Below are positions 12,567 through 50,763 of a stretch of 64,000 bases of DNA, piece by piece. Within the stretch, counting starts at the first letter, position 1. Every line of letters starts with the position of its first letter. This DNA comes from Candidatus Electrothrix communis. GTDB taxonomy: Bacteria > Desulfobacterota > Desulfobulbia > Desulfobulbales > Desulfobulbaceae. A program made the position numbers and the translations under genes. The notes beneath the pieces were generated by a model. It did no database searches. It was not told where the DNA came from and saw only the letters and a list, made by a program, of their open reading frames with translations. Location of the stretch: assembly GCA_030644725.1 (NCBI GenBank), contig CP130629.1, positions 3,735,501 to 3,799,500 on the forward strand, read 5' to 3'.

Positions 12567-12699
12567 TGATTCGATTCTTGAAAAAAGACGTCGTTTCCGC
12601 AAAGAACATGCTACCGTTCCAGAGGGATATACGGATATAACCCTCTGTCTGCCATGCCGACAAGGGGGTTGCTGGACAGCGACAATTTAACAGAAGATA

Positions 12700-13995
12700 A
12701 TGACAAAAGTTAAGGTGCGATCAACAGTCTTTTATTCATGGCAGAGCGATTCTGACAACAAGGTCAATCGTAACTTCATTCAAGATGCGCTCAAGAAAGC
12801 CATTAAGCAACTGAAGCGTAATGAAGATGTCCTCTCGGCCATGCGTGATGACAGCAGTATAGAGCTGGATAAAGATACACAAGGCGTCCCCGGCAGTCCT
12901 CCTATCGTTGATACTATTCTCAAAAAAATATCTCAAGCGGCGGTATTCGTACCTGACCTCACTTTTGTGGGGCAATCTTCTTCTGGTCGCCACTTGCCTA
13001 ATCCGAATGTTTTGATTGAGTATGGATGGGCCTTGAAGGCCCTTGGGCATGGTCGCATTGTTCCGGTCATGAATACTGTTGCCGGTGAACCTACAGCGGA
13101 AACCATGCCGTTTGATATGCAGCACCTGCGTCATCCGATCACGTATTGTCTTTCCGAAACGGATGACTTGGAGCAACGGAAGACAGTCAAAGCTGAACTT
13201 GTCAAGAAGTTGGAATATTCGCTTGCTGCTGTCTTCAAGCATATGCCAGCAGAGGATGCAGAAGAAAACGTCTTTGCTGGTCAACTAACAACATTTAGCC
13301 CATCAGCTTTCTGGGCACAAAATGAAACATTCCCTTATGGAGCTCAACATCTTATAATTCCAGATGTTCCAAGAATGTTCCTTCGTCTCATTCCTAAGCA
13401 GCCGTTAACTACGATTGAAACAAGCAAAGCTGTGCTGGATTTAATCACGTCTGCCAACTTGAAGCCGATGGGTAGCGACAGTATTGGAGGATCTCTTTAT
13501 TATGAACGGAATAGTTACGGCGCATTTTTAAGAGACGAATATGAAGGTTCAATAAGACATTGCTCACAGGTATTCAAAACTGGGGAGATCTGGGGTCTTG
13601 ATTGCTGGGTACTGGACAAAAAAATTGCACTGAGGCATCTTCGTATCCCTATTCCAAATTCAGTTTCAGGCGTTTTTCCCCATAGCTCTTTTGAGGATAT
13701 CTTGGAAAACACACTCAAAAACTATTTGCAATTTGCTCACGAAGTCCTCCACTTACCTCTTCCTCTGAAAATCATTGTTGGTGCCACCGATGTAATGGGA
13801 TTTCAGATGGCTGATAACTTTGGTTTTAATAGTCAACTCAACGGAAACGTTGTTGAAGAGCATCTTTTCAAAGAAATAATAATTGAAAATTATGACATTT
13901 CTCCTCGATCAATCCTAATGCCATTTTTTGAGTATGTATGGGAAGAATGCGGGCTAAATCGTCCAGAGAAAGAGTCTTTGGGGTCATGGGGATAG
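12700..13995 (+). CDS. TIR-like domain protein, putative defence effector
   Basis: 431 residues. The first ~180 look like a TIR-like nucleotide-binding fold: FYSWQSDSDNKVNR at strand A, VPDLTF at a later strand and PNPNVLIEYGWALKALG, where the Glu of NVLIExGxA occupies the position of the catalytic Glu in TIR NADases. The C-terminal ~240 residues show no motif I recognise and could be a sensor or regulator. It lies between a toxin-antitoxin pair and a DNA methyltransferase in an inserted block, which fits an immune role, but NADase or other activity is inferred, not shown. Confidence 0.6.
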   Translation: MTKVKVRSTVFYSWQSDSDNKVNRNFIQDALKKAIKQLKRNEDVLSAMRDDSSIELDKDTQGVPGSPPIVDTILKKISQAAVFVPDLTFVGQSSSGRHLPNPNVLIEYGWALKALGHGRIVPVMNTVAGEPTAETMPFDMQHLRHPITYCLSETDDLEQRKTVKAELVKKLEYSLAAVFKHMPAEDAEENVFAGQLTTFSPSAFWAQNETFPYGAQHLIIPDVPRMFLRLIPKQPLTTIETSKAVLDLITSANLKPMGSDSIGGSLYYERNSYGAFLRDEYEGSIRHCSQVFKTGEIWGLDCWVLDKKIALRHLRIPIPNSVSGVFPHSSFEDILENTLKNYLQFAHEVLHLPLPLKIIVGATDVMGFQMADNFGFNSQLNGNVVEEHLFKEIIIENYDISPRSILMPFFEYVWEECGLNRPEKESLGSWG

Positions 13996-14055
13996 CCCCT
14001 CGGACAAAATGCAGTCGAATTTATCGAATAATCATAAAAAATGGCATGCCGGTAA

Positions 14056-14075
14056 GGGCGGTTCGCGAACCGCCC
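14056..14075. repeat. 20-bp perfect GC-rich palindrome
   Basis: GGGCGGTTCG followed by its exact reverse complement, in the gap between the TIR-like gene and the dnaX leader copy. It could fold as a hairpin terminator without a T run, act as an operator, or be a dispersed palindromic repeat. No second copy was seen in this window. Confidence 0.7.
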
Positions 14076-14105
14076 CTACTCTGCCGCAATAAACACTGAA
14101 TCGTC

Positions 14106-20088: not shown

Positions 20089-21318
20089 ATGAAAAAGCTG
20101 GTTATTCTTGGAGCGGGCTGTGCAGGCACAATGGTTGCAAACAACTTACGCAAGAGACTGGATCGTGATGAGTGGTCGATCACGATTATTGATAAAGACG
20201 ACAAACATCTTTATCAGCCCGGCCTGATTTTTATCCCCTTCGGCATGTACAAGCCCGAAGAGATCGTCCGTACCCGCAGCGAGTTTATCGGCAAGGGGAT
20301 CAACTTTGTTGTGGATGAGATTGTTGGCGTTGACACGGAGACACAGGTCGTGGAGACCACAGCGGGTAAATACGAATACGACAAAATCATCGTTTGTACC
20401 GGTGTGAGTTTGGCCCCGGAAGAAATTCCTGGCATGATGGACGGTTGGCAGACTAAGGTTTTTGATTTTTACACCCTGGAAGGGGCTATAAACCTGGAAA
20501 AGAAGCTGCGCACCTTCAAAAACGGAAAACTGGTACTGAACATCGCGGAATTCCCTTATAAATGCCCAGTGGCTCCGCTTGAATTTGTCTATCTCGCGGA
20601 CTGGTTTCTTACCGAGCGAGGGGTGCGCGATGATATCGAGATCGAGTTTGTCACCCCCATGACCGGTGCCTTTACCAAGCCCAAGGCCTCTGCCTACTTT
20701 ACCAAGATGATGAAGGACAAGAATATCAAGGTTACCGCAGATTTCATCCTTGCCGAAGTTGACTGCACCAATAATAAGCTGGTCTCTGCATCCGGTGATG
20801 AAATTGAGTGGGATTTGCTGGTTTCCATTCCACCCAATGTGGGAGCACGCTATCTGGTCAATTCCGAAGTCGCTATGGATGAAGTGGGCTACGTCAAAAC
20901 GAATAACCATACCTTGCAGGCAGATAACCATAAAAACATGTATGTCCTCGGGGACAATACAACCATTCCCACCTCAAAGGCTGGTTCGGTAGCCCATTTC
21001 TCTGCGGAAATCATGGTGGAAAATTTCATGCGCGAGATCAACGACGAGCCTGTTCGACCAGACTATGATGGTCATTCGAACTGTTTCATCGAGACCGGCT
21101 ATGGTAAGGCCTCGCTCATTGACTTCAACTATGAATACGAGCCGCTGCCCGGTAAATTTCCCCTGCCTGGCCTCGGACCCTTTTCTCTCCTCGGCGACAC
21201 GAAGGCCAATCATTGGGGCAAGATGATGTTCAAATGGGTGTACTGGAACAAACTGTTGACCGGTGAGGAATTGCCGCTTGAGGCCCAGATGTCTCTTGCG
21301 GGTAAGGTTCAGGAATAA
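20089..21318 (+). CDS. sqr: sulfide:quinone oxidoreductase family protein
   Basis: FAD-dependent membrane-peripheral flavoprotein. N-terminal dinucleotide-binding LVILGAGCAGTMVANNL, a redox Cys in FPYKCPVAPLEF (near residue 160) and another in SNCFIETGYGKASLIDFNY near the C-terminus, the pair expected in SQR; a second FAD segment is MYVLGDNTTIP. It would oxidise sulfide and pass electrons to quinone at the inner membrane. AAGGAGAG precedes the ATG. The protein has only moderate resemblance to the best-studied types, so a related persulfide/sulfide oxidoreductase is possible. DUF1641 follows after 11 bp, a usual partner. Confidence 0.85.
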   Translation: MKKLVILGAGCAGTMVANNLRKRLDRDEWSITIIDKDDKHLYQPGLIFIPFGMYKPEEIVRTRSEFIGKGINFVVDEIVGVDTETQVVETTAGKYEYDKIIVCTGVSLAPEEIPGMMDGWQTKVFDFYTLEGAINLEKKLRTFKNGKLVLNIAEFPYKCPVAPLEFVYLADWFLTERGVRDDIEIEFVTPMTGAFTKPKASAYFTKMMKDKNIKVTADFILAEVDCTNNKLVSASGDEIEWDLLVSIPPNVGARYLVNSEVAMDEVGYVKTNNHTLQADNHKNMYVLGDNTTIPTSKAGSVAHFSAEIMVENFMREINDEPVRPDYDGHSNCFIETGYGKASLIDFNYEYEPLPGKFPLPGLGPFSLLGDTKANHWGKMMFKWVYWNKLLTGEELPLEAQMSLAGKVQE

Positions 21319-21329: not shown

Positions 21330-22073
21330 ATGACCAATGAAGAAAAAATTCTCGCCCGTCTTGATGAACTCACCGAGGAAGTGCGAGAGGCCAAACGAGC
21401 TGTCAGGCCCTATGTGGAGCTGAAGCAGGAATTGGAGCCCCTGATCCATTCTATGGTTCATGAAACGACGGCCCGCCTGAGCGGCTTGGATAAAAATGTA
21501 GACCTGGAAGAGGTCGGGGACATGGTCGGTCAGTCCCTGGCATCCAGCGGCAACATTACTGAGGCGCTCAAAACCCTGAACAGTATTATGGAATTTAAAA
21601 GGGATTTTGAGCCGCACGGCAAAGATATGTTTCATGAGCTGGCGCTTCACCTGCAAACCTCTTTTCAGGGCTTTGAGGGAGAAAATATGCAGGAACTGCT
21701 CAGGCAGTTCATCGTCAATATGGGGAATATTGCCGAGATGATGAAAACGCTCAGCTCGATGATGGATATGAAGCGCGATGTTGAACTTCTGAGCGGCCCA
21801 ATTATTAATGATGTGGTTGAACGTCTGGAAGGCTTTAAGCAACGCGGTCTGTTTGATGACTTCCAACGGATGCTTGATATCGGCGAGCAGGTCAGTGTCA
21901 AAATGAAGTCTGTTGATCTTGCCAAGGTAAAACCAATTACCGGTATTTTCGGTATGATGTCCGCTCTGAAACGTCCAGAAGTGCAGGAGGGGCTGGGGGT
22001 GCTGATTGAGTTATCAACGGTTGCCTCGGCTCTGAAGCATATGCCAAAAGAACCTGACCAGGATTGCGTTTAG
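21330..22073 (+). CDS. DUF1641 protein, SQR partner
   Basis: 247 residues, all helical, rich in Met/Leu/Glu, with a segment near residues 195-230 (VKPITGIFGMMSALKRPEVQEGLGVL) that is the DUF1641 core. It lacks signal peptide and clear transmembrane helices. Members are commonly encoded next to sulfide:quinone reductases or formate-dehydrogenase-like genes and may act as accessory or membrane-association factors; the precise role is unknown. AGGGAGAG lies just before the ATG. Internally it contains repeated helical units (NITEALKTLNSIMEFKRD, NIAEMMKTLSSMMDMKRD). Confidence 0.85.
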   Translation: MTNEEKILARLDELTEEVREAKRAVRPYVELKQELEPLIHSMVHETTARLSGLDKNVDLEEVGDMVGQSLASSGNITEALKTLNSIMEFKRDFEPHGKDMFHELALHLQTSFQGFEGENMQELLRQFIVNMGNIAEMMKTLSSMMDMKRDVELLSGPIINDVVERLEGFKQRGLFDDFQRMLDIGEQVSVKMKSVDLAKVKPITGIFGMMSALKRPEVQEGLGVLIELSTVASALKHMPKEPDQDCV

Positions 22074-22101: not shown

Positions 22102-22136
22102 AATCCACCCCCTCGGGGGGGTGGATTATTTATTTT
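22102..22136 (+). terminator. rho-independent terminator after sqr operon
   Basis: AATCCACCCCC pairs perfectly with GGGGGTGGATT around TCGG, followed by ATTTATTTTTT. It ends the sqr-DUF1641 unit and lies between convergent genes. Confidence 0.9.
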
Positions 22137-22197: not shown

Positions 22198-24027
22198 TTA
22201 AAGATGTTTCGGTGCAAAGGCCATTGCCCAGGTTCCCGGCCCCATATGGACCCCGGAGGACAGCGACAAGGGAGTCAGCAGGATTTTTGCCTTTGGCAGC
22301 AATTCTCGCACCTGCTGCTGCGCAGTTTCCCGTAGCCATTCCTCATTATCTGAGTATTGGAGCAGGATCAGCGGATCGCTGATTTTCACTGCCTGTTCTT
22401 GTAACTTTCTGAGCGCAAAGTCTAGCTGCCCCTTCCTGCTTCGGGTAACGCCCATTTTTTCCACGGTATTATTGATCGGGCTAACAACGGGTTTGACCCC
22501 GAACAGATCCCCAAAAAAACCGCCTGCCTTGGAGACTCGGCCCCCGGCGACTAAATATTTCAGCTCATCAATAAAGACATATTCCCGGCATTCCTCCATG
22601 ACGGTCCGTGCATAGGCAAGTACCTCGTCTGGTTGATGAGTTTTTTGCGCATACTGAGCCGTGAGTAGGGCGATGAGGGCAAGGCGGCCAGAGGCGGTGC
22701 CAGTGTCCAGTATTGTGAGCTGGTTGTCTGGATCATGCTCTTTTTGCCAGGCCCTTGCCGCAGCAACATTGCCGGTAAAGGCCGAACCGACACAGAGGTA
22801 AAGGCAGGGACCGAAACGTTGGATAAGGGTCTCGTAATGCTGGTGTCGCTCGAAGGAGGAGGCCTGGGCCGTGCTGACTCTACCGCCCTTGCGCTGCCTA
22901 GAATAGATTTCTGCCGGATCGCAGAGGCTTTCCGGGCGGACATCATCGCCAGCGACTATATAACTGTCCAGTAGGCTAATGCCGTGCTGGGAAGCGGTCT
23001 CTTTAGTTATTGAACCTGCCGCATCGGTTAGGATATGCAGGGTCGATTGTACAGCAGGTTCAGCATCAGACACCGACTTCTCCGTCTCCTCGTTTAATAT
23101 CCTGGAGGTCTGCACGATTTTCTCGGCATCCCAGTGAACCAGGGTGCCAAAGGCCGCCAGTTTTTGCCGAAGCTGTTCCGGTTCATCGGTGTGGATATGT
23201 ATCTTGAGCAGATTTTCATCCTCAAGCACGACCACGCTTTCCCCTAGGGCATTGATGGCATTGATAGCATGAGCAGTGGTTATCGTATCACCGGGATTGC
23301 CGGAGCCCATCTCTTGCCCATCCCTGCGAAGAAGAGCATCCACACAACAGCTGCTTGCTGTGATCGTGCCGCCGGTCGAGTCGACCGAACCCGAATTAGG
23401 AGACCCTTGCGAGAAAAAAGAGCTGCGTATATCCAGTTGACCGGCAAAAACAGTCAGGATGGAGTCAGGCTTGCCATCCTGCTGAGTTAATGCCCTGAAG
23501 AAGCCGTCAAAATAGATGTACATACCCAAGGCACCGGAATCCACGACCCCGGCTTCTTTCAGATCTGGTAGGTGCTCCGGGGTGGAGCGGACCGCGTTTT
23601 GCAACGCTGGCAGGAGCAGGGGGTAGAGTTCAGAAAGATCGGCGGGGTCAGTATAGGTGGCGAGGCTTGTTGCCAGACTGTCAAAGACGGATAGCATGGT
23701 CCCCTTGCAGGGCGCAGCTACTGCCTGCCAGGCCTTTTCCCTGCCGCTGGCTGCTCGTTCTGCGAGATCGGTAATCTGTTCAGCCAGACAGAATTCCCGA
23801 AAAAAAGCAGCGGCTATATTGCCGGAGTTGCCTATGGCGCAACGGGTCAGGAGGCCAGGGAGTTCCCTGTAATTTTGTTCCGCAGCACGAAAGGGGGCCA
23901 GACTGATCCGTAAATTGGTGCCGGTGTCGCTATCTGCCACAGGAAAGACATTGATCTGGTCCAGGAGATCAGACCAAGCAGCAAGAGAGGCATAGCCTGC
24001 GGTAAAGCTGGTGCGAAGTTCACTCAT
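22198..24027 (-). CDS. FakA-FakB-like fusion (DhaL/Dak2 + DegV)
   Basis: 609 residues. Residues 1-190 are a DhaL/Dak2 kinase domain (INVFPVADSDTGTNL, GNSGNIAAAFF, EAGVVDSGALGMY). Residues ~225-310 match the FakA distal domain (CVDALL..., LLKIHIHTDEP). Residues ~320-609 are a DegV fatty-acid-binding domain (ILTDAAGSI, GGRVSTAQAS, KYLVAGGRVSKAGG, LSSGVHMGPG). In Firmicutes fatty-acid kinase is split into FakA (kinase) and FakB (acyl carrier); here both halves are one chain, so it plausibly makes acyl-phosphate from a bound fatty acid. It overlaps the acyl ligase gene by 8 bp. Confidence 0.85.
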   Translation of the reverse strand: MSELRTSFTAGYASLAAWSDLLDQINVFPVADSDTGTNLRISLAPFRAAEQNYRELPGLLTRCAIGNSGNIAAAFFREFCLAEQITDLAERAASGREKAWQAVAAPCKGTMLSVFDSLATSLATYTDPADLSELYPLLLPALQNAVRSTPEHLPDLKEAGVVDSGALGMYIYFDGFFRALTQQDGKPDSILTVFAGQLDIRSSFFSQGSPNSGSVDSTGGTITASSCCVDALLRRDGQEMGSGNPGDTITTAHAINAINALGESVVVLEDENLLKIHIHTDEPEQLRQKLAAFGTLVHWDAEKIVQTSRILNEETEKSVSDAEPAVQSTLHILTDAAGSITKETASQHGISLLDSYIVAGDDVRPESLCDPAEIYSRQRKGGRVSTAQASSFERHQHYETLIQRFGPCLYLCVGSAFTGNVAAARAWQKEHDPDNQLTILDTGTASGRLALIALLTAQYAQKTHQPDEVLAYARTVMEECREYVFIDELKYLVAGGRVSKAGGFFGDLFGVKPVVSPINNTVEKMGVTRSRKGQLDFALRKLQEQAVKISDPLILLQYSDNEEWLRETAQQQVRELLPKAKILLTPLSLSSGVHMGPGTWAMAFAPKHL

Positions 24028-25411
24028 TGTTGAGCAGGCGGGTGATGGCGGATCGGTCGTACTTCCCGTTTTGTTTTACCGGGAGAGCAGGCACGGTTTT
24101 GATCAGGCGGGGCAGGGCATAGGGCTCCAAGGAGGCCTCAAGGCTTTTTTTGACCTGTTCTTTATCAACAGTCTCTCCTTGAATAAGGGCGGCGATTCGC
24201 TGCCCACGTCCACCGGATTCGGGCTGGGCCGTGACAAGGCAGTCTATCACCCCGGGTTCTTTCTTGATAAGGGCGGCGATTTCCTCCAGGTCTACGCGCT
24301 TACCGCCCACTTTGACCACAGCATCACTTCGTCCCTTGAGGAGAAAACCCTCAGGGAAGCCTTCAGTGCTGGTTGCTTCGGCTCGGTCATTGGCCAGAAA
24401 GAACCCCTGGTCGTCAACCGGCAGGTCCGGCGAGATATAGGGCGAACGCACGGCCAGTCGATCGTGGACAATTTTCCAGTCAATGGGCGAGAATGGGGTG
24501 AAGAGCTCTTCACCTTGGGACCGGTTCCGGGTGGCAATACCCCCGGTCTCGGTGGACCCGTAGACCTCAATCACCCCGGAGGGATTATGAAGACAAAAGG
24601 CCGCATTATCTGCGGCCTCCAGCATACCAGCTGAGGAAAAGGCCAGCCGCAGGTTCAGTCCTTTTTCTCGCAGCACTCGATAATGGGCTGGCACACTGGC
24701 CAGTACTGTTACCTTCTGGGCAGCTGCGGTTGCAAGGATTTCGTTGGGAAAGGAGGGCGTTTCATTGAGCACGGTTGCCGAGGAGACCAGGGGGAGCACC
24801 ACGGAGAACAAGAGCCCGTAAATATGCCAGGGCGGAACAGTGGCCATGATGCAGTCCTGTTCTGAAACCGCATATTGCTCAGTATGAAAAAGGGATTCGC
24901 CAAAGATATTTTCACCGGTCTTTGACCAGACCTTGGGCGCACCAGTGGAACCGCCAGTAAAAATTTTCAGCAGCTCTGCGCCAGGATTAACAACAGCATG
25001 CCCAGAAATAAGTGGTCTTGCCTCCTTTCCCTCTCCCTGCGGGGATGCTTGCGGTCGCAGTACCTCTACCCCGGCAGGGAGTTCTCTGGCCGTATCAGCT
25101 AGGGCAAAGTTGAAATCGGTCACCTCCTGCATCCGGGCCAAACTCGCAGCAGAAAGGGCATAGGGCAGGAGTAAGGAAGGGCCTCCGGCCAGGGAGGCCA
25201 GCAAAGCCGCCGCTATCACCGCTTTATCATGAGTAGCTAGGCAGATGGGCTTGTTCTGCGTGTCGGTCTGGGCAAACATGTCCAGCAGGTCAGCCGCTAG
25301 GGCATAGACTTGGGCAAAACTGGTCCCGCAGCGGGTGAATTCCCTGTCCGGATACTTGGGGCCTGCAAGTAGCTCTCCGATGATTTGCTCAGTACTGCGG
25401 TGTTGCTTCAT
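24020..25411 (-). CDS. ANL-superfamily acyl-CoA/ACP ligase
   Basis: 463 residues, short for the family. The P-loop FTGGSTGAPKVWSKT, aromatic VPPWHIYGLLF, adenylate motif EVYGSTETGGIATR, hinge KGRSDAVVKVGGKRVDLEEI and the catalytic Lys in PVKQNGKYDRSAI are all present. The N-terminal subdomain is reduced. It activates a carboxylic acid to acyl-adenylate and then a thioester; the substrate is unknown, but fusion-protein and radical SAM neighbours suggest a long-chain or polyketide-like acyl group. It overlaps the radical SAM gene in an ATGA. Confidence 0.85.
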   Translation of the reverse strand: MKQHRSTEQIIGELLAGPKYPDREFTRCGTSFAQVYALAADLLDMFAQTDTQNKPICLATHDKAVIAAALLASLAGGPSLLLPYALSAASLARMQEVTDFNFALADTARELPAGVEVLRPQASPQGEGKEARPLISGHAVVNPGAELLKIFTGGSTGAPKVWSKTGENIFGESLFHTEQYAVSEQDCIMATVPPWHIYGLLFSVVLPLVSSATVLNETPSFPNEILATAAAQKVTVLASVPAHYRVLREKGLNLRLAFSSAGMLEAADNAAFCLHNPSGVIEVYGSTETGGIATRNRSQGEELFTPFSPIDWKIVHDRLAVRSPYISPDLPVDDQGFFLANDRAEATSTEGFPEGFLLKGRSDAVVKVGGKRVDLEEIAALIKKEPGVIDCLVTAQPESGGRGQRIAALIQGETVDKEQVKKSLEASLEPYALPRLIKTVPALPVKQNGKYDRSAITRLLNNE

Positions 25412-26679
25412 GGAGCATCCTGCAAGGCTTTGCCAAAGGATTGGCCGCTCAGGCTTCGATCTCTGGGCACAAAGGTATTGCCCGCCATTTCCCGTTTAAC
25501 AATCTCTTTGAACAGTCTAGCCATCTTGATGGACTGGCTTTCCTCCTGATAAAAGGTGTTCCAGGCGTAATCAAGAAGTTCCTGGAGTCTTTCTGGGGCC
25601 ATATGCTTGGGCTGATACACCACTTTGTCAGCAGAATACTCATTCCAGTCATGGGAGAGGATGCGGTTCTGCTTTTGTAAATCAGTATAGGCCTTGGTGT
25701 GAGGGAAGGGAGTCAGTACGGTAAACTCGGCAAGATCCAGCTCGATCTCCAGGAGGAAATCAATGAGTCGTTTGATGAAATCCTCTGTGTGATTATCCAG
25801 GCCCAACAGAATAGTTCCTTCCACGCCTATTCCGTGGTCATGATAGCGTTTGATCCGCTCTTTGATATAATCCGAGGTGTCAAAGACCGCCTGATAGACG
25901 TACCAAGCCCCGGCCTGAGCTGCCAGATCTAACACCTCCGGTTTATCTTCAATGGGATGACAACACCAGCTTTTTTTCAGAGGGATCATCTCCCGGAACA
26001 GGTCCATTTCCCAGGCCGTATCCTGGGCTAGGGAATTATCCACGAGAAAGAGGCGATTATTGTCAATTCCGCTAAGTTCTTCCACCACCTTGTCCACAGG
26101 TCGGGGTCGGAACTCTCTGCCCCCCAAGTAGGAGACAGCGCAGGGGTAGCAGTTGAAGCGGCACCCCCGTGAGGCATGGACCAGATCAACCATCTGCACG
26201 CCCTTATGATTATAGAGCTTGCGGTTGAGAATGTCCCGCCGGGCCGGGCCGACCAAGGCGATGTCCGGTCGGTCGTTTATAAAATCATAGCAGGGCTGGA
26301 GGGAATTTTTCTTGAAATCGGAAAAAACCTGCTCCATCCGGCCTTCAGCCTCGCCGAGAAAGACAGCGTCTGCATGCTCCATGGTTTCTTCGGCATGGAG
26401 CATGGTGGAAATGCCGCCGAAGATGACCTTGACCCCTTGTTTGCGATAGCGGTCTGCTATTTCCCAGCCCCGTTTCACCTGTACGGTGAGCATCATGGAG
26501 ATACCGACAAAATCCACGGGATCGTCAAAGTCGATTTCTTCCAGATTTTCATCAACAAAATCAATGTCAACATATTCGGGTAAGGCGGCGGCAAAGACCA
26601 CAGGACCGTGCGGGGGCAGGTGGAACTCGGTCTGCCTGCCGAGCTTAGGCCATTTGGGATAAATCAGTTTGAATTTCAT
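25408..26679 (-). CDS. B12-binding radical SAM enzyme
   Basis: 423 residues. The N-terminal half is a cobalamin-binding Rossmann-like domain (VDFVGISMML, VIFGGISTMLHAEE, DAVFLGEAE). The radical SAM centre is HASRGCRFNCYPCAVS near residue 171 (Cx3Cx2C, with an extra aromatic instead of the usual two), followed by LFLVDNSLAQD and GTILLGLDNHTEDFI. Such enzymes methylate or rearrange unactivated carbons, often in lipids or natural products. Stop overlaps the acyl ligase start; 18 bp separate it from the PEP carboxykinase gene. Substrate unknown. Confidence 0.88.
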   Translation of the reverse strand: MKFKLIYPKWPKLGRQTEFHLPPHGPVVFAAALPEYVDIDFVDENLEEIDFDDPVDFVGISMMLTVQVKRGWEIADRYRKQGVKVIFGGISTMLHAEETMEHADAVFLGEAEGRMEQVFSDFKKNSLQPCYDFINDRPDIALVGPARRDILNRKLYNHKGVQMVDLVHASRGCRFNCYPCAVSYLGGREFRPRPVDKVVEELSGIDNNRLFLVDNSLAQDTAWEMDLFREMIPLKKSWCCHPIEDKPEVLDLAAQAGAWYVYQAVFDTSDYIKERIKRYHDHGIGVEGTILLGLDNHTEDFIKRLIDFLLEIELDLAEFTVLTPFPHTKAYTDLQKQNRILSHDWNEYSADKVVYQPKHMAPERLQELLDYAWNTFYQEESQSIKMARLFKEIVKREMAGNTFVPRDRSLSGQSFGKALQDAP

Positions 26680-26697
26680 GGTAAAATATAGAGGTTA

Positions 26698-28689
26698 TCA
26701 AAGCATATGTGCAGCTGCGTATTCAATCACCTGACCCGGAGTGACCACAGGCCCGATAATAGATTCTAGGGCGCGGAGGTCTCGTCTCCAGGTATCAAGG
26801 GTGTGGAAAAATTCTTCCGGCATTTCCTGTTCTTTGGCGAACTCCTCATGGGACGTGTCTATCCGATGGATAAGTTTTTCAATGTAGAGGGAGAACTGGT
26901 GGTTATAGAGCTCCTGACTGTATTCCTTGTCGATCAGCTCGCTGAAGAGTCGTTGCAGGTCACGGTATTTTGGTATGAGCCCGATGGGGGTCCAAATGGT
27001 TTCCGCCTTGCCCTGATGCATCAGGGCCATGATTCGCATCCAGACCTCGGTGTCCTTCTTTTCTCCCAGGAGTCCGTCCTCCTCTCCGGGGGCGAGTTCA
27101 CGACGGGCATTTTTATGCAGCCAGTAATTGACCTGAAAACCGCTGGGGAGGCAGTCTTCATGAATAGCAGGGTTTTCGCCGAAGGCCTTATAATGGGCAA
27201 TGTATTGCCCCAGAGGGCCGGGAAAAAATGCCTCGTTGGCAAAGGGCGAGCGTTTTTCACTGCCATCGGCACCGAGCTCGGTCGCCGTGGTGGCGGAGCG
27301 GATAATTGCTCCATGCACAACCGTGTTCATCCAGTCATGGGCCATGATAATGGTGGGCATGGTGGTGTAATCTCGACCTCCGAAAACTAGGGCACTCAGC
27401 TTGACCCCTTCAGCGTTTTCCGTAGCCGGGTCATAATTGGCTAAGGTATCCAGGGGAATGGTGAATCGGGCGTTTTTATGGGACATGGGACGACCGGACT
27501 CTTTTGTCCATTCACCTGCAAAATTACGCCCTGTTTCCGGCAGATCATAATCGCAGCCTTCCCAATACGGTTTTTGTTCATGAACCAGCAAGTTGGAAAA
27601 AATGACTTCCTCGCCTTCCCGTTCCAGCACATCCATTGTTTCCGGGTCATCTGTCCGGTTCATGCCTTCGATAATCCCGAACATGCCTTTTTCTGGATTT
27701 ACTGCTCGGACCTCACCACTCTCCTTATCGATAAAGATCTTGGCAAGATCGTCACCGATCAGGGCATCACCCGTCATTGCGGTTCCGGTCTTGCCGCAGC
27801 CGCTGGGATATGCACCGGCAAAATAGACAGTATCGCCGTCAACATCAAAACCGGTGATGAACATGTGTTCATCCAGCCGACTGCCAAAATGGTAGCGCAG
27901 GTTGTTCATGTTGGCGAAACGGTGATTGATTTTTTTAGGGGCAATGGAATTGCCCGCGTACTGGTTGTTGACGCTATAGGAATGGAAACGCTCCACATCC
28001 ATGTAGATGCGCCGATGCTCAAGGTGGGCGGAAACATGGTCGGCTGTTAAGTCGCCAGCAGTATGGTAGTTGATAAAGAGATAGCCTTTTTCTTCGACAT
28101 CGCGGGAAAAATTTTTCGGGTCAATCATTCGATAAAGCAGATACTCACTGTGGATGACATAGTATGAATCCGTGATCTGGAGCGTCGGGTCTGCAACTTT
28201 ACTGCCGATGGGGCCTCGGGAGATGAATGAAACAATCATCTCCTTATTAACCATGAGATCATCCATGATCATGCGAACCTCAACCAATCCGGCCCGATGG
28301 TCGAGCTTTTGCTGGAGAGAGCTGATGGGCGTATCAGGGTACGCGAGGTATTTTGTATTGGCTGTGTCGCGTCCCTGGTCCTTGGGCCCATCAAAATGGT
28401 AGGTGTGATCCGAGGTTGCCAGCGGGAACTCTTCATTATGGTTGAGGGCCTGCCGCCTGATATAGGCCATATCCTCTTCAGAACCGGTATTCAGGAACAG
28501 GGAGGCGGGGTTCATTCTGGTGGCGCCGTTGAAGATCGGTTCGATGACAGCCGGGCTGCACTGCATCAGTTTAGAAGAGTCAGCCTTGTCCATCAACCCT
28601 TCAAGGAAGGTTTTCATTGTTTCTAGTCTGAAAACGCTTGTCGAGCTGTCTTGGGCATGGCGGGTGTTCTGTCGGTCAGCAGTATTCAT
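26698..28689 (-). CDS. phosphoenolpyruvate carboxykinase (GTP-type), divergent
   Basis: 663 residues, slightly longer than typical. Kinase-1a P-loop is AYPSGCGKTGTAM (usual FPSACGKTN), the oxaloacetate/phosphate region is SRGPIGSKVADPTLQITDSYYVI, the guanine/PEP segment VFGGRDYTTMP and the late motif FPGPLGQYIAHYKAFGEN. These fix the family as GTP-dependent PEPCK, interconverting oxaloacetate and PEP. It heads the four-gene minus-strand operon; the link between central carbon metabolism and the downstream lipid-type enzymes is not obvious. Changes in the P-loop could affect nucleotide choice. Confidence 0.85.
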   Translation of the reverse strand: MNTADRQNTRHAQDSSTSVFRLETMKTFLEGLMDKADSSKLMQCSPAVIEPIFNGATRMNPASLFLNTGSEEDMAYIRRQALNHNEEFPLATSDHTYHFDGPKDQGRDTANTKYLAYPDTPISSLQQKLDHRAGLVEVRMIMDDLMVNKEMIVSFISRGPIGSKVADPTLQITDSYYVIHSEYLLYRMIDPKNFSRDVEEKGYLFINYHTAGDLTADHVSAHLEHRRIYMDVERFHSYSVNNQYAGNSIAPKKINHRFANMNNLRYHFGSRLDEHMFITGFDVDGDTVYFAGAYPSGCGKTGTAMTGDALIGDDLAKIFIDKESGEVRAVNPEKGMFGIIEGMNRTDDPETMDVLEREGEEVIFSNLLVHEQKPYWEGCDYDLPETGRNFAGEWTKESGRPMSHKNARFTIPLDTLANYDPATENAEGVKLSALVFGGRDYTTMPTIIMAHDWMNTVVHGAIIRSATTATELGADGSEKRSPFANEAFFPGPLGQYIAHYKAFGENPAIHEDCLPSGFQVNYWLHKNARRELAPGEEDGLLGEKKDTEVWMRIMALMHQGKAETIWTPIGLIPKYRDLQRLFSELIDKEYSQELYNHQFSLYIEKLIHRIDTSHEEFAKEQEMPEEFFHTLDTWRRDLRALESIIGPVVTPGQVIEYAAAHML

Positions 28690-30957: not shown

Positions 30958-31341
30958 TCATAAAATACTCTCTCTGAGAGCTGGACTCTTTGCCGGAAAA
31001 TAGATAGATCTGTTTTTTAGAAGAGCTTCGTGCAGAACGGGACAGAGTCCGTGCAGGTTTTCATTTGCTTTCGAGCGGGACATGTTGAATTGAGTCCCTA
31101 ATACGTCGAACGTAGGATATACTTTTAAATCATAGAGAACAAACAGAAGCTTGTCTCGCATCAAAGGCAATGCTCCTTTTCTGCCGCCTCCAGGACGACG
31201 TTTCCGGGTTCCTGCGGAAAGTCCCCGCTGTCGCAGCGTTTCAACGATCAGGGTGAATGTCTCAAGCAGGATGTCGAATTGTTCCTGCGTTAATCCTGTC
31301 AAGGCACGCAGGTGACGGTCGACGCGTGTTTTTATAGTCAT
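30958..31341 (-). pseudogene. truncated IS5-type transposase
   Basis: 127 residues: VDRHLRALTGLTQEQFDILLETF, RKRRPGGGRKGALPLMRDKLLFVLYDLKVYPTFDVLGTQFNMSRSKANENLH is the N-terminal HTH region common to DDE_Tnp_4-type (IS5/ISL2-like) transposases. The DDE catalytic half is missing, and only the terminator of the small-gene block lies downstream. Either a dead fragment or ORF A of a two-frame element whose second part has been deleted. Confidence 0.7.
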
Positions 31342-33161: not shown

Positions 33162-36100
33162 ATGGAGAAAAAAATATTTTTATCACGTTGCACGAAAGAG
33201 TTTAAGAAAGAAAGCAGGGATCTTTACGATTTCTTTAAAATATATCCTGGCATTGGGGTCATTGAGCAGGAGACTTACGTCCAGATTCACGATCACAAAC
33301 ACACGTTAGAATCACTTTATGAATTAATCGATGAACATGATATTTTCATTCAACTCATCGGTAACAAAGCTGGTTCACCAGTAATTAATGATAGCAAAGA
33401 TAGCAAGGACACTCTAACACCATTTTTAAAAAGTTGTGGACGTTATTTCGACGCGAAAGGAGCAGAAATAACAGACTTGGATCGTGATGATATTTGTAGA
33501 CTTCTTATTGAAAATGCTAGACCATTTTCTAAAATATCGTACACACAATGGGAGATTTATATTGCTCTTCATCTTGAAAAACCGATCCTATGTTATGATC
33601 TTCGAGATAATAATCAGGCACAAAAATCTCATGTTGACTTACTAACTAAGGCTGGAATCGAAGTTTACAAAATAGATAAAGATAGACGTAAAGATACGTT
33701 GCATTTATGCGGAAAGATAATAAATGCCCTTAGTCAGCAACATTCAGAGTCTCCTGAAAACGGAAAGCTAAAAATCAAGCGTAACGATCCATACTTGCCC
33801 GCATGTCTTGATATTAGAGGGTCTATAGATTTTGTAGGCCGTATAAACGACCTGAAAGACCTTGATAACTGTCTGAAACAGGATGATAAAAAGAAAAAAA
33901 GAATTATTCAGGTTATTGCCGACGGAGGAACCGGAAAAACAAAATTGATAGCACGCTGGATTCATTCAAGAAGAATGGCTGCGTTGCCAGGAAAAACATC
34001 TCAAGATATCAAACTTTCTAAAAAGGAACTAAAATTCTTTCAAGAAGGCTCTGTTCTTGCTTACTCACTTTACAAACAGGGAACAAATCGGCTGACATCA
34101 GGCGATTCGAATGATTCAGGAAAAGCTGTTGTCGGCTCCACCATATGGCAGGAAGCAGGTAATAAATGGCTAAAAAGTGATCCTGATTTCAAAAAAATAT
34201 TTAAAACAAGTGAAAAGAAATCTTCTGGGTGGAAGGCTAAAAAATTAGCTGAGACATTAAGAGAAAAAAGCATACTCCTGATCCTTGATGGCCTTGAGGC
34301 CGCACTAAGCCCTGCAAAAATCAAAGGAAAGCCTGAGTGGGTTGCACAAGATGACTTCCTTAATTACTTTCTTGAATTTATTTCAGGATATGAAAACAGT
34401 AAATGTATCGTCATTATTACAACCCGAGTAAAAATTACGATTACGCCTTCTAAGTACACTGACCGTATGGTTAATAGAGATCGTATGGTTATAAAAAATA
34501 TTGCTCCCCTTGCATTTAAACCAGAAGAGGACGAAAAAAATAATGATAGAGATAGAAACGAAACGATTGATTCTGAAGATGAAGCTGCATCTGTCTTGTA
34601 TTACTATAGCGAGCGTCACGAAAACCCTGCTATGGAACTTTTTTCTAAAAGCTCTTCCGTAGAGGAGAAAGAAGAGATCAAAATTATTAGGGATGAACTG
34701 TTACTATCTCGTGAAGTTACCATCCCAGATGACATACAGGAAAATCTACATACAATCGCAACAAAATTAAGAGGGCATGCCCTTTCACTTAAGCTGGCAG
34801 GCCAACTTGTTGCTTTTGAGATTGATAACTGGGATTGCATTGCTCATAACCTTAATTTGATACGCTATCAATCACCTTCTCCTCAAGGTGGAAATGAATT
34901 TTTCAAAACAGTTGAGAGAGTAAAATATCTGCTCGACTCTCATATTTTAGCATTTCAAGAACACGACCGACCTAAACTAAAGGCATTGCTTGCTGTTGGT
35001 GTCTTTGATCGTGAAGCAAATTTCAGAGAAATCGAACATGCCGCCAACCAACTTAACAAGTTGAATAATTGTCTTCTTGGGCCAACCACACCTGATCAGC
35101 TGACAAATGCACTGAATGAATTAACGAACAATGGCTTTCTGAACTCTGATGATGATGAAGATCAAAGTGCTTCTGAAATGAAGGTATGGGACTGCCACCC
35201 TCTGATTAGATCACGCCTATGTACTTATATTTTTGATGAAGACAAAGATCCGCAAAAGGCTCGTAGATGTCATCACGAAGTGGCAATTTTCTTCCTTAAA
35301 CAACTCGATTTTACTCGAAATAAAGATATCCTAATATCATTGGATAAGCTAAATAAAGCAGAGCAAGAAGATAGAGATGGAAGAAAAAGTGATTGGCAAT
35401 GTCATCATAAGAAGAATGCGGAGAATGCGTTTAATGACATGATATCATTACAAAGAGCTGTCTATCATTTTATCCTTGCAGGGGAACTGCGTACTGCTTG
35501 GCATCTTTACTGGGAGTGGATGTCAGTTGGTAAGGAATACCTGTTTTCACGTTTTTTTGGGGAGTTTGAAGAAGACTTATCAACTCTCAGCTACTTTTTT
35601 GAAACACCTTGGTCTGCTATCAAAGAGGCGGAAGATGAAGACCAGAAGATATCACCAGCTGATATTGCCTCACTTTTTGATGCAGCAGGCTTTAGATTAC
35701 GCTCACTCAACAGAATCACTGAAGCTCATCAAGCGTCAGGTGGAGCTTTTCTCTATTGGCACAAGGTGGGCTGGAATTCCCATGAAGAAATTTCAACCGA
35801 CGAGAAAAAAGTGCTTCGAGAAAGCTCTTACGCTGTAGGTAATCGTGCCGAATATTCTATGGTACAGGCTTCTCTCTCAGATGCTCTTATGTATGCCAAT
35901 CTTGCTGTTCGTTTGGCTGACGAAAGTGAAGACTCTGCGGCTCGGTTTATCCACCGTGTCGAACTTGCGGAAATACTCTGGCATAGAGGGAACTTGAACC
36001 AAGCCGTAAATCAGCTGAGATGTATTAATGACAAAAAATGTCCTCACTATATTCAATTCAAAAAAAAGCGGGGTGATAATCGACAAAAGGCTGAACTCTA

Positions 36101-36662
36101 CTGCCTTTATCGGTATCGCTACGGCAAAATACTTGCTAGTCGGGGAGAAATAAAAGAAGCTCAATTAATGGCAAAGGAATTAGAAAAAGATATAAAAGAG
36201 ACAAAATGGCTTTTAAATAACGGGCTATGGTATCTATTAAACGGATATATCAATTTAGCAAAAGCAAAGCCTGAATGGATTATCTCGCCACAATTCACCT
36301 TTCCCCCTGAAATAGATGACCCCCTTGACATACTACAAAAAGGAAAAGATCAATTCGACAAGGCGCGAAAAGAATTTGAAAGTAATCGTGCGGGCCACCA
36401 TGTATTAAAAGCTAGGATAGGCCAAGCTCTTTGCAATTATGAACTTATTGGTTCAAGAGGTATCAATAACACGAAGGGAAAATTGTCAAATATTACTCGA
36501 ACGGCAGGAGAACGACACCTTTTTCGAATTGATGCAGAAGTAGCGAAAGCAAAACTTCTTAATTCTGAACAACAAGTAGCTATAGCAAAAAGTTTATGCA
36601 TTAAAGCAGGTTACCTGAGACACCTGCCGCTTCTTGATTCGCTTTCCCCAAAAAAAGAATAG
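33162..36662 (+). CDS. STAND ATPase: DUF4062/TIR-like, NTPase, TPR-like
   Basis: 1166 residues. N-terminal ~200 residues: KKIFLSRCTKEFKKESRDLYDFF and SYTQWEIYIALHLEKPILCY, resembling DUF4062, a TIR-related effector module. Then a STAND NTPase: Walker A VIADGGTGKTKLIARW near 251, Walker B ILLILDGLEAAL near 371, sensor VIITTRVKI near 417, a winged-helix/ALSLKLAGQL region, and ~500 residues of helical repeats (TPR-like). This layout fits an NLR/Avs-type sensor that oligomerises on ligand binding. AAGGAG precedes the ATG. Low-GC relative to flanking housekeeping genes suggests transfer. Partner is probably the following DUF4231 gene. Confidence 0.75.
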   Translation: MEKKIFLSRCTKEFKKESRDLYDFFKIYPGIGVIEQETYVQIHDHKHTLESLYELIDEHDIFIQLIGNKAGSPVINDSKDSKDTLTPFLKSCGRYFDAKGAEITDLDRDDICRLLIENARPFSKISYTQWEIYIALHLEKPILCYDLRDNNQAQKSHVDLLTKAGIEVYKIDKDRRKDTLHLCGKIINALSQQHSESPENGKLKIKRNDPYLPACLDIRGSIDFVGRINDLKDLDNCLKQDDKKKKRIIQVIADGGTGKTKLIARWIHSRRMAALPGKTSQDIKLSKKELKFFQEGSVLAYSLYKQGTNRLTSGDSNDSGKAVVGSTIWQEAGNKWLKSDPDFKKIFKTSEKKSSGWKAKKLAETLREKSILLILDGLEAALSPAKIKGKPEWVAQDDFLNYFLEFISGYENSKCIVIITTRVKITITPSKYTDRMVNRDRMVIKNIAPLAFKPEEDEKNNDRDRNETIDSEDEAASVLYYYSERHENPAMELFSKSSSVEEKEEIKIIRDELLLSREVTIPDDIQENLHTIATKLRGHALSLKLAGQLVAFEIDNWDCIAHNLNLIRYQSPSPQGGNEFFKTVERVKYLLDSHILAFQEHDRPKLKALLAVGVFDREANFREIEHAANQLNKLNNCLLGPTTPDQLTNALNELTNNGFLNSDDDEDQSASEMKVWDCHPLIRSRLCTYIFDEDKDPQKARRCHHEVAIFFLKQLDFTRNKDILISLDKLNKAEQEDRDGRKSDWQCHHKKNAENAFNDMISLQRAVYHFILAGELRTAWHLYWEWMSVGKEYLFSRFFGEFEEDLSTLSYFFETPWSAIKEAEDEDQKISPADIASLFDAAGFRLRSLNRITEAHQASGGAFLYWHKVGWNSHEEISTDEKKVLRESSYAVGNRAEYSMVQASLSDALMYANLAVRLADESEDSAARFIHRVELAEILWHRGNLNQAVNQLRCINDKKCPHYIQFKKKRGDNRQKAELYCLYRYRYGKILASRGEIKEAQLMAKELEKDIKETKWLLNNGLWYLLNGYINLAKAKPEWIISPQFTFPPEIDDPLDILQKGKDQFDKARKEFESNRAGHHVLKARIGQALCNYELIGSRGINNTKGKLSNITRTAGERHLFRIDAEVAKAKLLNSEQQVAIAKSLCIKAGYLRHLPLLDSLSPKKE

Positions 36663-36688
36663 AAGCCATCTTGGCAGACAAAAAATGG

Positions 36689-36727
36689 TGAACTGGAGTA
36701 CCCCACAAAACGTACTACTCCGGTTCA
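36689..36727 (+). terminator. hairpin after the STAND gene
   Basis: TGAACTGGAGTA (36689-36700) pairs with TACTCCGGTTCA (36716-36727), one G-U, followed by TTTATTTC. A plausible, if T-poor, terminator. Confidence 0.55.
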
Positions 36728-36752
36728 TTTATTTCTGAGTCTACCCCTCTCT

Positions 36753-36956
36753 CGCGGCATACGCATGATTTTTGCTATAAATTCAGCAAAATATTGCTTC
36801 CGAGCTACCGTCTCAGCGGACGGAGGCTTATTTGTGTAATAAAAAGCATGAAAATTGTTAAAAAAGTGCCGTAGCGCTGAGTCTCCAAATTTGAGCTCCA
36901 AAACGCTCTAATTGTAACTATTTGATTTTTTATGTACAAGTCATGCGTATGCCGTG
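36753..36956. mobile_element. 204-bp MITE with 10-bp target duplication
   Basis: Terminal inverted repeats CGCGGCATACGCATGA at the left and its complement (CACGGCATACGCATGA) at the right, 15 of 16 identical. Flanked on both sides by ACCCCTCTCT (36743-36752 and 36957-36966), a 10-bp target-site duplication. The interior is AT-rich with no gene. Non-autonomous. A 10-bp duplication fits IS4-type elements. It splits the STAND and DUF4231 genes. Confidence 0.82.
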
Positions 36957-37016
36957 ACCCCTCTCTAGCTCTGAACTTGTATGAACACATCCCGCAACTT
37001 AACAAAAAGTTAAAAA

Positions 37017-37922
37017 ATGAAACAAAATAAATTCCCTCCGCTGTACGTAATAGCTGACCTCAAATCAATAAAGCAACAACAGTGGCATTTTCGTTCGCTA
37101 CGAGTACAACTCATCTTTCTTTTTATAGCCTCCTTAACAACGGTAATAAACTTTCCGTATTCCGATAAAACATCTTCACTTTTTTATATACTTTTCATTA
37201 TTATATCAATGTGTTTTATGTGCTATAGTTCTTTATTGAAACCTGAAAAAATATGGTATGAAAGCAGAGCACTAGCTGAATCTGCCAACACGCTAACATG
37301 GCGCTTTATCATGGGGGCAAAACCTTTTGATTTTCACCAGACAAAAGAGAACGTTGAATCGAATTTCATAAATGAGCTTAAAGAACTATGGAAGCTTAAT
37401 AAAATGAATGATAAGAAAATCGATAAAACACTTAGAGAAGATTCACAGATCACCGAATGGATGCAAAATATTCGCCGCTCAGATTTTGAAATAAAAAAGG
37501 ATCATTATTTACAATTAAGAATTGAAGATCAACTCAACTGGTATGAAAAGAAAAAGGAATTTAATAAAAAACGAGCAAGATCATTCTCTATAGGGAGTTT
37601 TGTTGCTTACGTTGCTGCCATCATAATAGCTTGCCTTCAGATCACAGGTACAGCTCTTCCACAGTGGTCTTCCGAGCCCATTTTAATGCTAGCCGCTGGA
37701 TTAGTAGGCTGGACCCAAGCCAAAAGATATTCTGAATTAGCATCATCCTACGCTTTAACTTCCAGGGAAATATCTGATATTAAAGACGACATTGACAAGA
37801 TAACCAAAGAACAGTTCAGTAATTTTGTCAACAACTCAGAAAGAGCATTTTCTCGTGAACATACCCAATGGACTGCTCGCCGACTTGATTATTCATCAGG
37901 GGAAGAAAGTGATACCCCATGA
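37017..37922 (+). CDS. DUF4231 (SLATT-like) membrane protein
   Basis: 301 residues. Four transmembrane helices in two pairs (LIFLFIASLTTVINF, FYILFIIISMCFMCYSS; and SFVAYVAAIIIACLQ, EPILMLAAGLVGWTQA), joined by a soluble helical linker with IWYESRALAESANTLTWRFIMGA and RIEDQLNWYEKK, typical of DUF4231. SLATT/DUF4231 proteins are predicted pore-forming effectors coupled to nucleotide-sensing or NTPase modules. It follows the STAND gene on the same strand; removing the MITE leaves only ~140 bp between them. Confidence 0.75.
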   Translation: MKQNKFPPLYVIADLKSIKQQQWHFRSLRVQLIFLFIASLTTVINFPYSDKTSSLFYILFIIISMCFMCYSSLLKPEKIWYESRALAESANTLTWRFIMGAKPFDFHQTKENVESNFINELKELWKLNKMNDKKIDKTLREDSQITEWMQNIRRSDFEIKKDHYLQLRIEDQLNWYEKKKEFNKKRARSFSIGSFVAYVAAIIIACLQITGTALPQWSSEPILMLAAGLVGWTQAKRYSELASSYALTSREISDIKDDIDKITKEQFSNFVNNSERAFSREHTQWTARRLDYSSGEESDTP

Positions 37923-49291: not shown

Positions 49292-50763
49292 ATGAATTTT
49301 AGTATCCCCGAAGAGAAAGAAGTCCGTACGGCCTTTGCGGAAGGTGAAGAGGCAATTATTGCCCTGTTCGGCAGTATAACCGCGCAGGTTAAAGAACTCG
49401 CCGCTCAGTTGGAAAAACAGGCCGGAGTATTGAAGGATTTACAGGCCCGGCTGTCGAAAAACAGCCGCAACAGCGGTAAACCGCCTTCAAGCGACGGATA
49501 CGGTAAACAGAACAAGACGGAAAGCCTGAGAAAGTCTGGTCAAAAGTCGAACGGCGGGCAGCCGGGTCATGAAGGGCGGACTCTTAAGCGGTCGGAAAAC
49601 CCAGATCATACGGAAACGTATAAACCCGACACATGTGACAACTGCCAGACATCGCTTGAGGACGTCGCCGCCGTCGGAGAGGAAGAACGACAGGTTTATG
49701 ATATTCCGGCGATACGAATCGAAGTCACCTCGCATCGTGCGGAAATCATAATTTGTCCCGAATGCGGCATGGAAAATACGGGAAAATTCCCGGAAAGTGT
49801 GGGACGGGGCGTTCGATACGGCAGAGGCGTGAAGACATGGGCCACGTATTTCGGGAATCAGCATCATATTCCGCTTGAACGCACTGCACAGATTTTTGAA
49901 GATCTGATCGGGCACGGAATTTCGGAGGGTTCGCTGCTGAAGGCATCTGAAGAACTTTCCGAGTGCGTCCGGCCCTCGACCGAGGCGACAGCGGAGCTTC
50001 TGCGTAATGCCGAGGTTCTGAAAGTGGACGAAACCGGACTGCGGGTCAAAGGAAAACTCCATTGGCTGCATGTAGCTTCGTCGGACCTCCTCACTCATTA
50101 TAACGTGCATGAAAAGCGGGGAAAAGAAGCGATGGATGCAGCCGGAATCCTCAGTGAATTCGAAGGAAGGATGCTGCATGATCACTGGAAATCGTACTTC
50201 GGATATAAAAATTGCCGTCATGGGCTGTGCAACGCGCACCATCTTCGCGAGTTTAAATTCATAGGCAAACAGTATGAACAGGCATGGGCTGGAGACATGG
50301 CCGACTTACTGCTTGAGATAAAAGAGGAGGTCGAAAAACTGAAGCCGGACCGGGATCGTTTCGGGCCGGAACAGATCGAAGGTTTTGAACGGCGATACGA
50401 TGAAATCATTTGTCGGGGCTTCGCGGACAATCCCTTCACGCCTCCAAAAGAAAAAAGAAGGGACGACTGAAAAGACCGCCGCCGCTCAATCTGCTGATAC
50501 GGCTCCGGGATTACAAGTCGGAGACTCTCGCCTTTATGTACGATTTTCGGGTTCCGTTCGACAATAATGCGGCGGAAAGGGATGTGCGTATGATGAAGGT
50601 CAAACAGAAGGTTTCGGGTTGTTTCCGAACTGTTGAAGGTGCGGAACGGTTCGCTTCTATCCGGGGATATATCTCCACGGCTCGTAAAAATTCAAAAAAC
50701 ATTTTCGAGGCGATCAAAGACGCCTTCAACGGCGATCCTTTTATTCCCGATGTCGCAGTATAA
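49292..50763 (+). pseudogene. IS66 transposase, frameshifted
   Basis: First part 49292-50470 (392 residues): N-terminal leucine zipper, then QARLSKNSRNSGKPPSSDG, zinc-finger CDNC...CPEC, DETGLR (first Asp) and LHDHWKSYFGY (second Asp). Second part ends at 50763 and holds the third acidic residue with [23 protein letters not shown]. Frames differ by -1 at an A-run (AAAAGAAAAAAG, 50446-50457). The slip motif is not in the canonical phase, so a mutation is more likely than programmed frameshifting. Confidence 0.82.

Follow-up and report, generated by a model that had tools for sequence, protein, structure and literature searches.

Four open reading frames (ORFs) on the minus strand of Candidatus Electrothrix communis contig CP130629.1 are the subject of this analysis; they lie within a window of 64,000 nucleotides (positions 3,735,501 to 3,799,500), the whole stretch of DNA that was analysed, and a preliminary description had regarded them as one operon. 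All four were confirmed at the place given there. In the order of transcription they encode a GTP-type phosphoenolpyruvate carboxykinase (PEPCK; window positions 28689-26698), a B12-binding radical S-adenosylmethionine (SAM) protein of 423 residues (26679-25408), an AMP-forming acyl ligase of 463 residues (25411-24020) and a 609-residue protein that resembles a fatty-acid kinase in one chain (24027-22198), referred to below as the fusion. The radical SAM and ligase genes overlap by 4 bp (25408-25411) and the ligase and fusion genes by 8 bp (24020-24027), in agreement with the 4-8 bp described for the downstream three genes, and a gap of 18 bp separates the PEPCK gene from the radical SAM gene.

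The fusion carries three Pfam domains, all above cut-off: Dak2 (residues 29-176), FakA-like_M (248-303) and DegV (330-607). The kinase and fatty-acid-binding halves which the preliminary description had placed in a single protein are therefore indeed found in one intact frame. Three regions can be distinguished on the minus strand: a FakA_N/DhaL-like ATP domain (residues 1-187; 23467..24027), a FakA middle domain (23053..23466) and a DegV/FakB-like acid-binding domain (residues about 325-609, including H594; 22201..23052), the last of which is recognized by TIGR00762 (143.3 bits, cut-off 99.7). The YloV model covers only residues 5-352 and is followed by a DegV match at 331-604; by these model matches the FakA_C domain, which in FakA serves for docking of FakB, is not found in the fusion, and a FakB-like domain stands in its place.

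An AlphaFold2 model was built from an alignment of 19 fusion proteins (mean pLDDT 84.8, pTM 0.86). In this predicted model the N half (187 residues) superimposes on Staphylococcus aureus FakA_N (7rm7) with Z 23.8 and a root-mean-square deviation (rmsd) of 2.3 over 185 aligned residues, and the DegV half superimposes on the lipid-binding chain 1pzx_B with Z 32.4 and rmsd 2.3 over 282 aligned residues, with a target-normalised TM-score of 0.87 to both 1pzx and 2dt8. The predicted fold is thus FakB-like (Z 25-32 to DegV/FakB chains), and a bound fatty acid is named in the titles of many matched entries.

In a survey of 297 genomes of the same phylum (Desulfobacterota/Thermodesulfobacteriota), the fusion was detected at E <= 1e-20 in 22, including that of the window. 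In the latter genome, a single contig of 4.85 Mb, nothing else FakA- or FakB-like matched the fusion at E <= 0.001. A scan of contigs yielded 33 loci, many of them from Desulfobulbaceae or Desulfobacteraceae and one from an isolate, Desulforhopalus sp. IMCC35007 (L059). Neighbourhoods were obtained for 54 loci, in which the fusion was located by tblastn: 42 were near (fusion identity of at least 35%) and 12 far (23-28%). Once L058, L060 and L072 had been dropped as duplicates of L032, L042 and L039, 39 distinct near loci remained. The reading frame of the fusion is uninterrupted in the window, as in the majority of relatives. Two of the far relatives (L085 and L086, from actinobacterial records) did not align over the FakB residues and are probably ordinary FakA proteins, judging by their sequences; in both records the FakA-like gene lies beside a RecG-sized gene of 727-728 residues, and L085 also has a separate DegV-like gene.

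According to the parts of the S. aureus FakA study drawn on here (PMC9136124), Mg-ADP is bound by Asn32, Asp38, Asp40, Thr41, Asn82 and Asp185, the catalytic triad is Cys240/His282/His284, and Arg173 of FakB1 is the arginine above the carboxylate. Counting on the alignment matched these FakA residues to N26, D32, D34, T35, N67 and D163 of the fusion and to C228, H277 and H279, the latter three being invariant in all 19 aligned fusion proteins. N26, D32, D34 and T35 are kept in each of the 37 near relatives that cover them (two more lack coverage), so that the loss of the metal-binding Asp pair in homologs, which the preliminary description had held against itself as a possibility, did not occur. 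N67 was found in 36 of 37 (Met in L040), D163, C228 and H277 in 38 of 38, and H279 in 37 of 38 (Arg in L048). R497 is likewise present in the 38 near relatives that cover it (L070 ends before this position); it is the likely counterpart of FakB1 Arg173, judging from a GGR motif in common with 1pzx and not from a direct alignment with FakB1. One further arginine of the binding half, R394, distinguishes the near relatives (39/39) from the far ones (0/12), and lies within a segment which reads ASxFERHQHYE in the window protein and most near relatives. This residue may mark a different substrate.

Among the partner genes, the ligase contains AMP-binding (PF00501) and AMP-binding_C (PF13193) domains over the Pfam cut-off and is weakly similar to E. 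coli ApeH (27.7% over 336 residues, E 1e-19, by BLAST). The radical SAM protein passes the cut-off for B12-binding (PF02310; 35.9 vs 32.1) and falls below that for Radical_SAM (24.1 vs 29.5); its sequence contains CRFNCYPC, which has the form CxxxCxxC, and is 85% identical to the Desulforhopalus protein at L059. It fails the ladderane-cluster model TIGR04072 (43.9 vs 360).

The neighbourhoods of the fusion were analyzed by clustering of the neighbouring ORFs and by Pfam scans, with "directly upstream" meaning within 400 bp on the same strand. The recurrent neighbours include ketosynthases (KSs; one of them a double protein of 720 residues), acyl carrier proteins (ACPs), ApeP- and ApeI-type dehydratases, FabG and several B12 radical SAM proteins. 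They are accompanied by LolA, an AMP ligase or an aromatic amino acid lyase, a 4HBT thioesterase, a family 2 glycosyltransferase (GT2), LpxL-type and PlsC-type acyltransferases, and an MMPL exporter joined to a methyltransferase. At least three of the marker types of aryl polyene (APE)/ladderane-like clusters occur in 38 of the 39 distinct near loci (the exception, L061, is a contig of 6.4 kb), a count which describes conservation and not independent enrichment, the marker genes having been picked from the relatives themselves. By the same markers, the 12 distant relatives gave no matches other than FabG- and ligase-like ones in L077 and L079 and a ligase-like one in L086.

Two gene orders recur: (i) dehydratase-FabG-LolA-(F16)-radical SAM-ligase-fusion-GT2-LpxL type-...-ACP-KS-PlsC type, and (ii) radical SAM-lyase-thioesterase-fusion-GT2-MMPL-LpxL type. 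The radical SAM, ligase and fusion genes are consecutive in 10 of the 39 near relatives. Directly upstream of the fusion there is a thioesterase gene in 17 cases, a ligase gene in 15, an LpxL-type gene in two, a lyase or a radical SAM gene in one each, and none in three; the gene directly downstream is GT2 in 19, PlsC type in three, LpxL type in two and another in three, with none in 12. The arrangement is thus conserved, contrary to the doubt raised in the preliminary description, and of the proposed four-gene operon the grouping of the radical SAM, ligase and fusion genes stands. PEPCK, which had been counted as part of the unit, does not belong with them: we rejected it as a pathway member and regard it as a bystander, because the gene is absent from all 54 of the relatives' neighbourhoods. 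The protein itself contains PEPCK_GTP (PF00821; 291.2 bits) and PEPCK_N (PF17297; 137.7 bits), scores below the NCBIfam equivalog cut-off of NF003253 (452.3 vs 504), and is the only match of its kind in its genome at E <= 0.001.

In order to identify the pathway, we compared the clusters by BLAST with the 18 ape genes (apeA-apeR) of E. coli CFT073. The Desulforhopalus locus has counterparts of 11 of the 18 proteins (ApeO, E, P, Q, L, H, J, F, R, D and I), and counterparts of ApeK and ApeM occur in the fusion clusters L046 and L039; ApeH, ApeL and ApeM are weakly matched (21-30%). E. coli ApeJ is a single protein of 558 residues, which is matched in the fusion clusters by separate GT2 and LpxL-type genes. 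The APE gene set, consisting of KS and chain-length factor, ACP, ketoreductase, dehydratases, ApeH ligase, ApeJ, ApeD, LolA and MMPL, is present as one cluster in relatives. Other features recall ladderane-like clusters: one radical SAM protein of the window's genome (L111:9445-10806) passes TIGR04072 (382.6 vs 360), and phytoene-desaturase-like oxidases are present. In view of the Ape counterparts, the TIGR04072 match and the oxidases we use the name APE/ladderane-like pathway and leave its product open; the gene set in which the fusion lies probably builds aryl-polyene or ladderane-like membrane lipids.

No single contiguous APE cluster was found in the genome of the window, where the pathway is spread over five loci (the window, L111, L112, L113 and L136). 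With each identity measured against the best counterpart from the stretches of the relatives, L111 contains an ACP, a double KS (62%), the radical SAM gene passing TIGR04072 and a CrtD-like oxidase; L112 contains an ACP, three KSs (83%, 78% and 67%), a PlsC-type gene (59%), a B12 radical SAM gene (75%), a SPASM radical SAM gene (77%), two further radical SAM genes (81% and 87%) and a thioesterase (63%). GT2 (68%) and LpxL-type (71%) genes are located in L113, and FabG (76%), LolA (59-60%) and F16 (46%) in L136. The three genes of the window (radical SAM 85%, ligase 61%, fusion 55%) lie on the same strand as the L113 and L136 pieces and within about 75 kb of them, in an order other than that of the relatives. 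The triad is, by sequence comparison, one piece of an APE/ladderane-like pathway whose other genes are elsewhere in the same chromosome. This wider pathway was missed in the preliminary description because other genomes were needed to see it.

Transposase-type genes (HTH_Tnp_4, IS66) are present in the window at 30958-31341 (minus strand) and 49292-50470 (plus strand), and in L136 a DUF6399 gene (12666-14093, minus strand) is located directly upstream of FabG. Since such genes occur in the window and beside FabG, mobile elements may have contributed to the dispersal of the pathway. The same genome also contains, in L116 (2847746-2852664), three B12 radical SAM genes on one strand within about 5 kb, whose products are 31-36% identical to the radical SAM protein of L059.

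Co-occurrence in the 297 genomes was scored at E <= 1e-80 for the radical SAM gene and at 45% identity or more over the whole length for the full-length double KS. The radical SAM gene was found in 21 of the 22 genomes with the fusion (the one lacking it, G009, is 85% complete) against 15 of the 275 others, and the double KS in 14 of 22 against 1 of 275 (G049, 82% complete). The corresponding Fisher p values, in which relatedness is ignored, are 1e-21 and 1e-17.

These observations leave little doubt in our minds that the fusion belongs to an APE/ladderane-like pathway, as far as this can be read from genes, and it is quite probable that the protein forms an acyl phosphate. We favor, with somewhat less assurance, the combined reading in which the fusion is a one-chain carboxylic-acid kinase encoded in a detached piece of an APE/ladderane-like type II fatty acid synthase-polyketide synthase lipid pathway. 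The DegV half would hold a free acid, most likely the polyenoic product freed from its carrier, and the carboxylate would be phosphorylated by the FakA half by means of ATP-Mg and its Cys-His-His triad. The acyl phosphate could then be returned to ACP by PlsX (the PlsX and PlsY families, which are known to use acyl phosphate, have one match each in the genome of the window); alternatively, it would serve as donor for the GT2/LpxL-type pair (a split ApeJ) and the PlsC-type enzyme (ApeD), which would build the membrane lipid.

The gene for the fusion is placed between genes for the binding or freeing of acids (ligase, thioesterase) and genes for their attachment (GT2, LpxL type). Whether the protein is used at this release and attachment end, and not at the start of the pathway, is a nearly balanced matter, to which we give slightly less than an even chance. 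More tentative is the most specific form of the proposal: that the product is an aryl-polyenoyl or ladderane-precursor phosphate, the acyl-phosphate donor for an outer-membrane polyene lipid, made by a kinase in which the protein that carries the substrate has itself taken the place of FakA's docking domain. FakA_N and FakA_L are described as active without FakA_C, the domain that binds FakB, albeit with a weaker Km for FakB (PMC9136124, in the parts drawn on here), and the docking domain may be dispensable because the FakB-like protein is covalently attached. Activity, substrate and step are in each case deduced from the genes. The earlier suggestion of lipid activation or modification in a Gram-negative background is supported as regards both the activation of a lipid acid and the setting; its inclusion of PEPCK is not.

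Several observations weigh against the favored reading. The fusion is far below the NCBIfam equivalog cut-offs for FakA (106.3 vs 975) and FakB1 (45.4 vs 350), and its frame is interrupted, split or incomplete in the draft genomes L052, L067 and L073, for which decay, a natural split and assembly error are alternatives. The ligase of the same operon could perform acid activation alone, and the account of the E. coli APE scheme in the portion of PMC8253772 used here makes no mention of a kinase. The stretches examined in the window's genome, a small fraction of the whole, did not show genes of the ApeM, ApeP or ApeN type, and the derivation of the marker genes from the relatives, given above, belongs here as well. 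Moreover, in the 15 other genomes with the radical SAM gene, counted as fusion-negative for want of a match at 1e-20, related clusters exist: 11 of the 15 were examined, and in 9 of these 11 the locus is a cluster with KS, thioesterase, dehydratase, acyltransferase, exporter or GT2 genes and without the fusion. As for the other two, L119 is unreadable as a cluster (overlapping-frame choice of ORFs) and L129 is only 5 kb long. An AMP-binding protein of another type is part of the cluster at three of the 11 loci, and at one locus an ORF with a weak ligase match lies about 7 kb from the radical SAM gene.

In the tree of radical SAM proteins, 20 fusion-associated proteins, together with one from a second locus of a fusion genome, form a starred group (99/97), and the 11 fusion-negative proteins form another (94/87, not starred). 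The proteins of L038 and L040 (49% and 46% identity) lie outside both, and for this reason the radical SAM co-occurrence in G085 and G077 is possibly due to a paralogue. As clusters with the sister radical SAM protein lack the fusion, the latter is not essential to this type of pathway. These comparisons make the fusion a variable module within a broader type of pathway and link it to a single clade of the radical SAM protein.

Three other explanations compete with the favored reading, and sequence by itself does not separate them. The fusion could phosphorylate an aryl or short starter acid before elongation, in concert with the ligase, for example cinnamate supplied by the lyase. The order lyase (PF00221)-thioesterase-fusion in nine loci (L036, L038, L039, L044, L045, L046, L048, L063 and L068) speaks for such starter activation, as does the presence of an AMP ligase or lyase in 29 of the 39 fusion loci when the 11 fusion-negative loci examined gave no match for an aromatic amino acid lyase. 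Ten of the 39 have neither gene, though several of these stretches are short; the DegV half resembles, in the predicted model, proteins that bind long-chain fatty acids, and ApeH is described in the part of PMC8253772 considered as loading the starter unaided. We judge this explanation improbable, although it is the strongest of the three.

A little less probable still is salvage or proofreading, in which the fusion would recapture acids leaked from the pathway or membrane and return them via PlsX, off the main route. In Enterococcus faecalis, Fak is described as recycling acids that have been released (PMC12594616, as far as that source was used), related clusters manage without the fusion, and PlsX and PlsY are both present; the tight coupling with a ligase or thioesterase gene upstream and GT2 downstream, and the retention of the fusion across the radical SAM clade, suggest a dedicated role instead. 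The catalytic residues and the fold would also suit a general kinase for exogenous fatty acids that serves ordinary phospholipid synthesis and entered the operon by chance. We consider this very unlikely: only 22 of the 297 genomes have the fusion and 21 of these have the radical SAM gene of the cluster, the distant relatives are found in other contexts, and R394 of the binding half is specific to the clade.

The remaining features of the window lie outside the triad. A stem-loop at 22102..22127, between the convergent fusion and DUF1641 genes, is a possible shared terminator and as such is assigned to no strand; it has an 11-pair stem and a T-rich tail and was listed on the plus strand by a pattern match which gave 14 such structures against 8.7 in shuffled sequences. 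Scans of the window for sigma-70 promoters and terminators added little. The DUF1641 gene (21330-22073, plus strand) follows a gene for a type III sulfide quinone reductase (20089-21318, plus strand), both being convergent with the fusion operon; the reductase passes the selenoprotein-subtype model NF049943 (631 vs 525), yet its frame is open with no in-frame stop. A region of low GC content (33162-37922, plus strand; about 0.38-0.40) encodes a protein of 1166 residues with no Pfam match and a SLATT_3/SLATT_1 double two-transmembrane effector protein, possibly a defence or signalling pair; a PADLOC scan of the neighbour proteins gave no relevant match, these two included. A protein with a Condensation/PapA-like acyltransferase domain is encoded at 45522-46838 (minus strand).

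An open-access literature search, which is weak evidence of absence, returned no description of a DAK2-DegV fusion or of a fatty-acid kinase or DegV protein in aryl-polyene clusters. Both the chemistry of the kinase and the type of cluster are known; a single-chain form with a fixed position in such clusters did not come up in the literature searched. In the sections consulted, fatty-acid-kinase chemistry is described for Firmicutes as an alternative to acyl thioesters (PMC12594616), while the release of aryl-polyene acids and their fixing to a membrane lipid (PMC8253772) and the working of ladderane-like clusters in relatives among the sulfate reducers (PMC2649909) are presented as open questions. 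With the ligase or thioesterase on one side and the GT2/acyltransferase pair on the other, a kinase would provide a concrete and assayable step, the acyl phosphate of the pathway acid, and points to acid activation in APE/ladderane-like pathways. It would also place fatty-acid-kinase chemistry in a presumably Gram-negative lineage that has PlsX and PlsY as well, and offer a one-protein system for studying the joint active site of FakA and FakB.

Among the closest known systems are the distant DAK2-DegV proteins from Woeseiaceae, Gemmatimonadota, Neomarinimicrobiota and Spirochaetaceae records: 10 of the 12 (L075-L084) have 585-614 residues, align over both halves and keep the Mg/ATP residues. 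They differ from the fusion in sequence (23-26% identity), lack R394 and are found in other gene contexts, with no APE-type neighbours.

The ladderane-like type II fatty acid synthase clusters of Kuenenia and Desulfotalea psychrophila share with the fusion clusters many KS paralogues, radical SAM enzymes, phytoene-desaturase-like oxidases, a ligase and a glycosyltransferase (Rattray 2009, PMC2649909); the portion of that text considered, figures aside, mentions neither DegV nor a kinase. The APE cluster of E. coli CFT073 differs in that its annotation includes neither a kinase nor a DegV protein and that ApeJ is one protein where the fusion clusters have two genes, and the fusion clusters have, in addition, several B12 radical SAM enzymes.

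Finally, the two-component FakA and FakB of Staphylococcus and Streptococcus have the same DhaL-type ATP domain, Cys-His-His middle domain and FakB/DegV domain with matching residues. In contrast to that system, the fusion is a single polypeptide with no FakA_C, scores far below the FakA and FakB1 equivalogs, and is encoded, in presumably Gram-negative bacteria, within a gene cluster of the APE type.

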